Shown here piece by piece: positions 27,190 through 56,055 of a DNA stretch of 56,055 nucleotides; within the stretch, counting starts at the first letter, position 1; each line of letters opens with the position of its first letter. The position numbers were made by a program, and so were the translations under genes. The notes beneath the pieces were generated by a model, which saw nothing but the letters and a program-made list of their open reading frames with translations, ran no database searches and had not been told where the DNA came from. This DNA comes from Methanolinea sp. (lineage in GTDB: Archaea; Halobacteriota; Methanomicrobia; Methanomicrobiales; Methanospirillaceae): positions 1-56,055 of the forward strand of contig JALOPW010000008.1 in assembly GCA_025453675.1 (NCBI GenBank). Direction: 5' to 3'.

Positions 27190-27237
27190 GTTCCTCTCCT
27201 GAACCGGCAGTCCAGGAAGTTCAGACCGGTTTCCCGA

Positions 27238-27307
27238 ATGAAAATGGCTTCGCCATTTTCATAATTTATGTCCGAAATCCTGGAAGGAGTTCATAGTGTA
27301 TTGGTAT
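27238..27307 (+). repeat. dispersed hairpin element, type A, copy 1
   Basis: A perfect 11-bp stem (ATGAAAATGGC / GCCATTTTCAT, loop TTC) is followed by a conserved tail running from TATGTCCGAAATCC through GGAGTTCATAGTG. The last 17 bases overlap the 3' end of ribL, so the repeat encodes that protein's last residues and its stop codon. Two further copies lie at 38003-38140. Confidence 0.85.
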
Positions 27308-31865: not shown

Positions 31866-31995
31866 GACGTGGCGAGATGCAGTGGCTGACACTATTCTGC
31901 GCAAGATGTGTGCCGCTCTCAGGCCCATTTCCATGAAGAGACCGCGTAAGAATCACCTGGTGGAGTGTTGCCCCCAACAACACCTTCATGTATTT

Positions 31996-32011
31996 TTACT
32001 CATATGAGTAA
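31996..32011. promoter_or_regulatory. 16-bp palindrome, candidate operator before the DUF5320 gene
   Basis: TTACTCATATGAGTAA is a perfect palindrome 36 bases before the ATG of the DUF5320 gene, where the core promoter should be. Its 10-bp centre, CTCATATGAG, recurs at 33232 upstream of atwA. Confidence 0.55.
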
Positions 32012-32046
32012 TTAAGGGCGAGAGGCCCACAGGCAGGTTGAGAAGA

Positions 32047-33116: not shown

Positions 33117-33231
33117 GAACCACTCCATTTTCCCATTTTCGCATGTCTTCCCGTCCACCTGTCTCTTTTCCGATATATTCTCAAGACCCACAGCCTGCAG
33201 ATGACAATTACATTATCTTTATTTCTTTCTA

Positions 33232-33241
33232 CTCATATGAG
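33232..33241. promoter_or_regulatory. 10-bp palindrome upstream of atwA
   Basis: CTCATATGAG matches the centre of the 16-bp palindrome at 31996. It lies 105 bases before the atwA ATG and next to AT-rich DNA (ATTATCTTTATTTC, 33212-33225) that may hold the promoter. Confidence 0.45.
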
Positions 33242-33345
33242 AAATAATAGATGACACCGCACGGAGAGATCAGGGGTTCTTGAACCCTCTGCCGTCTCCC
33301 GGGGTCAGTTCCTGCAGTAGCAGAGTATGCAAGTGTGAGGATGAT

Positions 33346-37902: not shown

Positions 37903-38002
37903 GAAGTCCCTGCCCGGCACATTCCCCCTCTTTTCTGCACTCCGCGGCATCCTCTTCCCATCCCTCTATAGCCATTCCCGCACTATATCCGGCATTTTTC
38001 GA

Positions 38003-38070
38003 ATGTAAATGGCTTCGCCATTTTCATGATGTATGTCCGAAATCCTGAAAGGAGTTCATAGTGTGTCCTA
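38003..38070 (+). repeat. dispersed hairpin element, type A, copy 2
   Basis: The element reads ATGTAAATGGC-TTC-GCCATTTTCAT (one stem mismatch), then the type A tail through GGAGTTCATAGTGTG. It is in direct tandem with copy 3 at a 68-base period, downstream of porD. The stretch 37903-38002 before it has no recognisable gene. Confidence 0.85.
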
Positions 38071-38140
38071 ATGAAAATGGCTTCGCCATTTTCATGATGT
38101 ATGTCCAAAATCCTGAAAGGAGTTCATAGTGTGTTGGTAT
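38071..38140 (+). repeat. dispersed hairpin element, type A, copy 3
   Basis: It has a perfect 11-bp stem, the same TTC loop and the same tail as copies 1 and 2, with only a few base changes. Its TTGGTAT end matches copy 1 and runs directly into a type B element. Confidence 0.85.
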
Positions 38141-38205
38141 GAAAACCGCATCCGCATTTTTCATCAGGGGGGCATGTGACCCTGCAGTCTCATGTGAGTT
38201 TTGAG
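38139..38205 (+). repeat. dispersed hairpin element, type B, copy 1
   Basis: An imperfect hairpin (ATGAAAACCGC / GCATTTTTCAT) is followed by the type B tail CAGGGGGGCATGTGACCC, then AGTCTCATGTG and a T-run. The tail matches those at 44940-44977 (opposite strand) and 55146-55187. It ends 20 bases from the stop of the convergent zinc-ribbon gene. Confidence 0.8.
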
Positions 38206-44694: not shown

Positions 44695-45073
44695 AGGCCG
44701 GCTCCATCTCCAGAACAGCAGAGAACCTCTCTTCTTTGAATGCAGGGTATTCACCCCCCTCCCGGTGACGAATCCCCCATGATCTCCCTCCATCCTCCCC
44801 CGGAGGTGAAGGATGGTTGCCGGATTATCCCCATGAAACGCATATGTGACCCATGGTCACATACCCCGCATATGAACACACGAATGATGCATCTCGCAAC
44901 AGGCCCGACGCATGAAAATGCCGGAGGCATTTTCATAGGAAACGCACATGAGACTGTCGGGTCACATGCCCCCCCTGATGAAAACCGCGAATGCGGTTTT
45001 CATACCAGAATCGTATGCACAATTTCCTTGGATTCTGTCTCTTTCCCGGAAACGGGTAATATATAAGGTTGAT
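44695..45073. other. 379-base intergenic region rich in hairpins
   Basis: No gene is seen here. The first 115 bases show nothing distinctive. Then come a 9-bp stem TATGTGACC-CAT-GGTCACATA (44843-44863), a perfect 11-bp stem ATGAAAATGCC-GGA-GGCATTTTCAT (44912-44936), and a type B repeat on the minus strand (44940-45003). A TATA-like TAATATATAAGG (45057-45067) is only about 12 bases before the thiC ATG. No TPP riboswitch sequence was found. Confidence 0.6.
44940..45003 (-). repeat. dispersed hairpin element, type B, copy 2
   Basis: Read on the minus strand, a perfect 11-bp stem ATGAAAACCGC / GCGGTTTTCAT (loop ATTC) is followed by the tail CAGGGGGGGCATGTGACCC and then GACAGTCTCATGTGCGTTT. It is the best preserved type B copy, and lies upstream of thiC in the opposite orientation. 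Confidence 0.85.
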
Positions 45074-54885: not shown

Positions 54886-55197
54886 CTTTTTTGCCTCCTC
54901 GCTGTTTTGTGTGGGGAAACTGAATCGAGGTTGTTATTTGCATACAAATTCGGTCACCGAACCGCCGCCGGGGCGTCCTTCGGGGGCGGCGGCGTGCATC
55001 GCATATGGGGGTGTGGGGGCGGACAGCCCCCACAAAATGTATCCGGTTTATCAATCCTACCCACACCCGATAGCGAAGAGCCACTTTTTTACTATGAAAA
55101 TCGCATCCGCGATTTTGATACGAAAACCGCATACGCGGTTTTCATCAGGGGGGGCATGTGACCCGATAGTCTCATGTGCGTTTTTAAAAAAAATGGG
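54886..55197. other. 312-base intergenic region with GC-rich stems and repeats
   Basis: No gene is seen. The region holds a GC-rich stem (CCGCCGCC at 54962-54969 with GGCGGCGG at 54985-54992), then a 9-bp stem TGTGGGGGC-GGACA-GCCCCCACA (55012-55034), then the hairpin at 55094-55119 and a type B repeat. The 9-bp stem may end transcription of the mevalonate operon. Confidence 0.55.
55094..55187 (+). repeat. hairpin plus dispersed element type B, copy 3
   Basis: A first hairpin, ATGAAAATCGC / GCGATTTTGAT (55094-55119, one mismatch), is followed at once by ACGAAAACCGC / GCGGTTTTCAT (55120-55145, one mismatch). The type B tail CAGGGGGGGCATGTGACCC and AGTCTCATGTGCGTTTTT then follows. It ends 10 bases before the stop of the convergent lipoprotein gene, near a run of A's. 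Confidence 0.82.
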
Positions 55198-55833: not shown

Positions 55834-55920
55834 GGATGAGGATTGTTGGGGATATGTGTAATAATTACATTTGTTTTTGCTCTGGAGGATTCATCAACAG
55901 TATTCAACGGTGGTGGCCAC

Positions 55921-56055
55921 ACTCATTCCCTGGCATCCGGCACATCCCGAATGCATATGCCTCCGGCTTCCCTTTCTCTCTCCTGCCTCACTTATTCCCT
56001 GGCATCCGGCTCGTCGCGAATGCACATGCCTCCGGCTTCCCTTTCTCTCTCCTGC
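55921..56055. repeat. 69-bp tandem repeat, about two copies, reaching the window edge
   Basis: Copy 1 is 55921-55989 and copy 2 starts at 55990, cut by the edge. They share ATTCCCTGGCATCCGGC, then GAATGC and ATGCCTCCGGCTTCCC and TTTCTCTCTCCTGC, with a few changes in between. The period is a multiple of 3, and one minus-strand frame stays open through both copies, ending at a stop near 55884. I cannot say whether it is coding. Confidence 0.7.

Follow-up and report, generated by a model that had tools for sequence, protein, structure and literature searches.

PATEs (palindrome-associated transposable elements) and the small mobile repeats SMR-A are known from Haloquadratum walsbyi (PMC3119063), and the GTAG and CGTC families of repetitive palindromes have been listed for bacterial phyla (PMC3733652). 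In archaea, the IS200-like subclass of TnpA alone has been found (PMC6006769). Elements of the IS200/IS605 group, which carry hairpins, transpose as single strands; a short target lies 5' of the inserted element, the orientation of which is fixed, and no duplication is evident (PMC7290912). Among these systems, PATEs and SMR-A are closest in behaviour, and bacterial REP/BIME closest in layout, to a family of hairpins from Methanolinea, of which a literature search on Methanolinea repeats and palindromes, judged by title or abstract, gave no description.

This hairpin family consists of interchangeable modules of about 66-72 bp, each having its own inner stem and its own tail. It is characterized by modular anatomy, high copy number, T-tract context, nested insertions, lineage-specific distribution and sharing across genera, and we consider it likely to be a mobile, T-tract-targeted, non-coding and non-autonomous family of DNA repeats. 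All eight hairpins reported by a first-pass annotation of the window (the whole stretch of 56,055 nucleotides that was analysed) are present where that annotation placed them (Table 1). Their layout comprises a single A module (27235), an A-A-B array (38000-38202), a B-F-E mosaic on the minus strand (45006-44833) and a cut hairpin followed by B (55094-55184). The GGTAT right after the first A module is perhaps a remnant of a B module. The cut hairpin is among the candidates for nested insertion, but its flanks do not rejoin.

Table 1. Hairpins and modules of the window, with the module types of the family
Feature	Position in window	Strand	Description
Hairpin	27238-27262		
Hairpin	38003-38027		one mismatch, ATGTAAA
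Hairpin	38071-38095		
Hairpin	38139-38164		right arm decayed, CCGC/GCAT
Hairpin	44912-44936		
Hairpin	44978-45003		
Hairpin	55094-55119		
Hairpin	55120-55145		
A module	27235-27302	+	hairpin 27238-27262, inner stem TGGC/GCCA, loop TTC; tail TATGTCC..GGAGTTCATAGTGT
A module	38000-38067	+	first unit of head-to-tail array; TTTTTCGA directly before
A module	38068-38135	+	second array unit, 68-bp period
B module	38136-38202	+	third array unit; hairpin 38139-38164, decayed right arm; tail CAGGGGGGCATGTGACCC..CTCATGTGAGTTTT
B module	44940-45006	-	hairpin 44978-45003
F module	44876-44939	-	directly after B; hairpin 44912-44936, inner stem TGCC/GGCA; tail GCGTCGGGCCTGTTGCG..
E-type tail GGGGTATGTGACCATGGGTCACATATGCGTTTCAT	44833-44875	-	after F; boundaries approximate
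Hairpin cut short	55094-55116	+	inner stem TCGC/GCGA; after TTTTTTT-ACT; next module begins past TTTT
B module	55117-55184	+	hairpin 55120-55145
Type A			hairpin TGGC-TTC-GCCA
Type B			hairpin CCGC-ATCC-GCGG
Type C			inner stem TCGC
Type D			TGGC-TGC-GCCA here, TCGC or TGCC too in relatives; tail with TCTCGAAGAGA and final T-run
Type E			module type of this genome
Type F			hairpin TGCC-TCC-GGCA
Type G			hairpin TCAC-TTC-GTGA
Type H			seen in a relative (G006)

Each module begins with three type-specific bases; then comes the hairpin and last a tail, again type-specific, whose end is GTT(T) or a T-run. The hairpin has a near-perfect 11-bp stem, the outer part of which (ATGAAAA/TTTTCAT) is constant and the inner part type-specific. 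Two tail types had been proposed earlier; this number has to be raised to at least seven in the genome (A-G), and a relative adds an eighth, H. As a rule, each tail type goes together with one particular inner stem. Modules occur alone, in head-to-tail arrays or in inverted mosaics. The bases preceding the hairpin are CTA or CGA in A, GGT or GGC in B, and ACT, AAT or TAT in D; a second hairpin could be formed in the A tail, is weak in B and is absent from the D consensus. The left end (NNN-ATGAAAA) differs from the right end (GTT(T) or a T-run). A terminal inverted repeat TTTTTCGAATGAAA..TTTCATTCGAAAAA of A-B composites was considered and rejected, its right-hand half being present at some sites only. 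About eight type-H units form a 68-bp tandem array in the relative G006 (L066:4682-5218).

Exact ATGAAAA..TTTTCAT hairpins number 138 in the Methanolinea genome (a draft of 1.84 Mb, 94% complete), compared with 0 for the reversed pattern. A relaxed scan of the 796 kb read directly as stretches, some 43% of the genome, gave 122 hairpins versus 0 in the reversed sequence; counts for the whole genome were obtained by searching. By these reversed controls, a chance origin of the hairpins is excluded. BLAST with the window repeat, using a query that included the A unit 38068-38135, returned 58 places. A search by covariance model, proposed in the first-pass annotation as a check, found many copies rather than just a few, and the finding of a dispersed family stands. 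It had also been claimed that all copies lie between genes. None of the 74 clusters in the 796-kb sample, 79% of which is coding, lies wholly inside a predicted gene by crude gene calls, but the copy at 27238 shares 12 bases of its tail with the end of an ORF that stops at 27291.

The modules are found behind T-tracts. Across eleven genomes, four or more T in a row occur within the ten bases before 53 of the 68 D units standing first in an array (78%), while such a run is met at 4.8% of random intergenic positions. First D units lie at a median distance of about 20 nt from the upstream gene. The association is looser for the other abundant types, at least four T preceding 15 of 30 first units of A and 14 of 25 of B. 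Two orthologous unoccupied sites already carry the T-run, while the other compared sites do not. That the run could be a part of the unit is disfavoured by these two sites; the right-hand run of D may still belong to it. Archaeal terminators are U-tracts (PMC8716108), and for this reason many insertions fall at gene ends.

Mobility is indicated most directly by nested insertions. Among the 64 B candidates, which include a few misplaced windows, 15 lie inside the hairpin of another module, and when B is left out the recipient closes up again at TTTT|CAT; a single mismatch to the arm consensus is seen in six of the 15 hairpins restored in this way. Since the recipients are of four types (A, D, F and G), at least four insertion events have taken place. 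Several nested loci form related composites about 210 bp long, so that the independent insertions are fewer than 15. The nested B units are flanked by TTTT on the left and mostly by TTT on the right, which leaves room for a duplication of up to three T. In 14 of the 15 cases B is opposite in orientation to its recipient (e.g., L166:8557-8622), yet the recipient palindrome offers TTTT|CAT on both strands; the spread of composites explains this excess in part at most.

Comparison of species gives a similar picture. The gap that holds the window array contains none of these hairpins in seven relatives, where the flanking genes are syntenic and 73-82% identical, the intergenic DNA itself having diverged; a decayed B fragment is possible in the gap of L171. 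Covariance models placed B in 15 of 108 Methanoregulaceae genomes (at least 48 copies here, 16 in G231) and D in 35 of 108 (at least 46 here, 44 in G005 and 31 in G220), and some congeners have only 0-3 copies. Between this genome and UBA10516, which belongs to another genus, the identity of B units goes up to 97-99%, whereas longer gene matches reach only 67-79%; contamination of the MAG assembly may be the source of this likeness. The earlier suggestion of a miniature repeat family is thus borne out by copy number, modular arrays, nested insertions, unoccupied orthologous sites and sharing across genera. Hairpins in scattered bacteria were taken as chance, a plasmid search gave no match, and viral contigs contained one hairpin in an unrelated context. 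Dense arrays are located upstream of xerA in this genome (L165:5937-6873), and one Methanoregula has a single divergent palindrome at its xerA locus (L194). XerA recombinase was considered as a partner and rejected, the family hairpins not being found at the xerA loci of relatives, some of which have short flanks.

Other explanations of these observations have to be weighed against transposition. Mobile or duplicated transcription terminators, above all of type D, could be kept for ending the transcription of the upstream gene, and the position of D agrees with this: 80 of 101 D units (21 do not) lie in sense downstream of a gene, which reads into them often at 25 nt or less from its stop codon. 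D also ends in a T-run, as would suit archaeal termination via U-tracts (PMC8716108), and array density roughly doubles in convergent gaps according to crude gene calls. The T-run, however, stands before the unit already, and two orthologous sites lacking the unit have it too. A and B units are not clearly oriented with respect to genes, compensation within types is rare, and only 3 of 18 D sites are common to this genome and other species, so that the terminator explanation appears improbable. Operon-end signals, one of the functions put forward in the first-pass annotation, agree with D modules lying in sense just after genes but not with sites that are mostly unshared between species, a pattern which reads as terminator targeting rather than as a kept signal. 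The same sense position and final T-run of D, together with near-perfect stems, could also be expected of a structured RNA family, the copies of which would encode a small RNA or a regulatory 3'-UTR element with its fold under selection. Covariation beyond chance does appear in the larger alignment: the score is 0.181 versus 0.057 in shuffled and at most 0.050 in slid alignments, for 86 matches (82 distinct) that had been fitted to the D model before scoring, though it comes mainly from two pairs, that is, from a handful of type-level changes. Both sides of the stem do change together between module types, as had been noticed at first, but rarely within them: among 1299 pairs of types A, B and D of this genome, one-sided changes affect 59 and compensated ones 8, and several of these 8 are whole hairpins borrowed from another type. 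These 8 still exceed the expectation for independent substitutions, for which module exchange or some selection on pairing is a possible cause; type B has 0 compensated pairs in 46 copies. G.U and A.C pairs are found 22 and 18 times within A, B and D, which favours neither strand, and 20 and 15 times in 47 distinct D hairpins. Substitution is slower in the stem (0.024-0.040) than in the loop and tail (0.064-0.14), in a search which itself favours intact stems. One-sided decay within types and the lack of strand bias argue for a mobile repeat at the DNA level rather than a conserved RNA. With no gathering-level Rfam match within the window, no G.U excess on either strand, mostly unshared sites and no clear strand preference of A and B relative to genes, the small structured RNAs of the earlier proposal are very unlikely, and we prefer the reading that the structure is kept in spreading lineages and not site by site.

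The repeats could also be old and ancestral, differentially lost and kept alike by gene conversion, with no recent transposition. When D sites of other Methanolinea were mapped to this genome, 3 of 18 had D, as shared ancestry would allow, and several of the 15 orthologous gaps without D hold other module types, which suggests long-lived hot spots. Against such an origin stand the nested insertions, the removal of which restores the recipient hairpin, copy numbers that differ among congeners (from 0-1 to at least 48), the near identity of B units in different genera, and the 68-bp tandem array in one relative. We regard it as the least probable of the explanations considered.

Under the preferred reading of a mobile family, each unit would enter immediately 3' of a T-tract and always in the same orientation. 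Many of the target tracts would be U-tract terminators behind genes; others could be the TTTT of a hairpin or the T-ending tail of an earlier unit. Since a new unit brings T-tracts of its own, further insertions would build head-to-tail arrays and inverted mosaics. Composites of A-B or A-D seem to spread as blocks, and settled copies would decay. The reaction could be performed by a trans-acting enzyme reading the folded single-stranded hairpin and cutting at T-tracts. An HUH-type mechanism for this step, such as that of IS200/IS605 enzymes on PATE and REP elements, is suggested tentatively and by analogy. Alternatively, the family could be a transposase-less archaeal one, mobilised by an enzyme outside the known classes of mobile element, or by host proteins, with recognition of the hairpin and the terminator T-tract and with gene ends as landing sites; this appears rather unlikely.

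The mover may be missing from the assembly, may have been lost or may be of another kind. No match to Y1_Tnp (PF01797), and thus no cognate RAYT gene, was found in this draft genome (94% complete) or in the other 12 Methanolinea, and seven g27 genomes, likewise drafts, had no Y1_Tnp match. G191, a Methanoregula carrier of the family, has two Y1_Tnp. Each Methanolinea genome gives one weak match to PF07282, a Zn-ribbon model; in this genome the protein reads as TFIIB from its sequence, and no IS605-type TnpB was found there. Reverse transcriptase (PF00078) had no match in 12 genomes including this one. Near five IS200-like transposase loci elsewhere in the order, no hairpins resembling the modules were seen.

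Several further repeats were noticed. A second repeat of about 300 bp, MITE-like and with imperfect terminal inverted repeats CCTCCTCGCTGTTTTGTGTGGGG, occurs at L135:8302-8600 and in L140, L139 and L156; a shorter copy occupies window positions 54890-55082, and the start of this repeat lies beside a B unit in UBA10516 (L093). Two tandem 69-bp copies, 91% identical, are located at the contig end (window 55916-56053). Two similar 36-bp stretches with TACTCATATGAG (window 31977-32012 and 33210-33245) lie in a gap of more than 2 kb where a crude gene caller placed no gene.

The family extends REP/BIME-like and PATE-like repeats to Methanoregulaceae, and its context, a T-tract behind genes or inside the hairpins of other units, is new with respect to the repeat literature cited here. 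An enzyme, if found, would reveal how palindromes lacking a transposase spread, and the effects of a hairpin at a terminator on archaeal gene ends would have natural tests in the species-specific arrays. Covariation between subfamilies of a mobile palindrome can mimic a conserved RNA, which calls for caution.

Compared with known systems, the modules resemble MITEs in being small, non-coding, dispersed and intergenic, but are without clear terminal inverted repeats or target duplications. With IS200/IS605 elements (e.g., IS608) they share a fixed orientation, a hairpin at the left end and a unit end (GTTT) that resembles the target; this likeness is one of sequence layout, and neither tnpA nor tnpB was found in the Methanolinea genome. 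Bacterial REP/BIME are likewise short extragenic palindromes present in more than 100 copies per genome, arranged in mosaic arrays with varied segments between palindromes and divided into stem subfamilies with complementary changes (PMC2817692, PMC3733652). They carry a GTAG or CGTC tag, GTAG being accompanied by RAYT, whereas the modules have neither tag at the hairpin foot. PATEs have ends similar to those of IS605-type transposons in their own host (PMC3119063), while in the Methanolinea genome neither TnpA nor TnpB was found. SMR-A differ from the modules by inverted terminal repeats and a length of about 110 bp (PMC3119063), and the modules differ from both PATEs and SMR-A by units of 66-72 bp, by their location behind T-tracts and by mosaics of at least seven types. 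As in PATEs, a palindrome stands near the end, the hairpin of the modules beginning 3 nt from the left end, and the 66-72 bp units are too short to encode a transposase. Like PATEs and SMR-A, the modules are short, non-coding elements of high copy number in an archaeal host, with palindromes near their ends. A target duplication, which PATEs lack, is not evident in the modules, but one of up to three T could be hidden within the T-tracts. Finally, the near-terminal palindromes of PATEs and of IS605-type elements are insertion sites for SMR-A (PMC3119063), much as the hairpins of other modules are for B modules.
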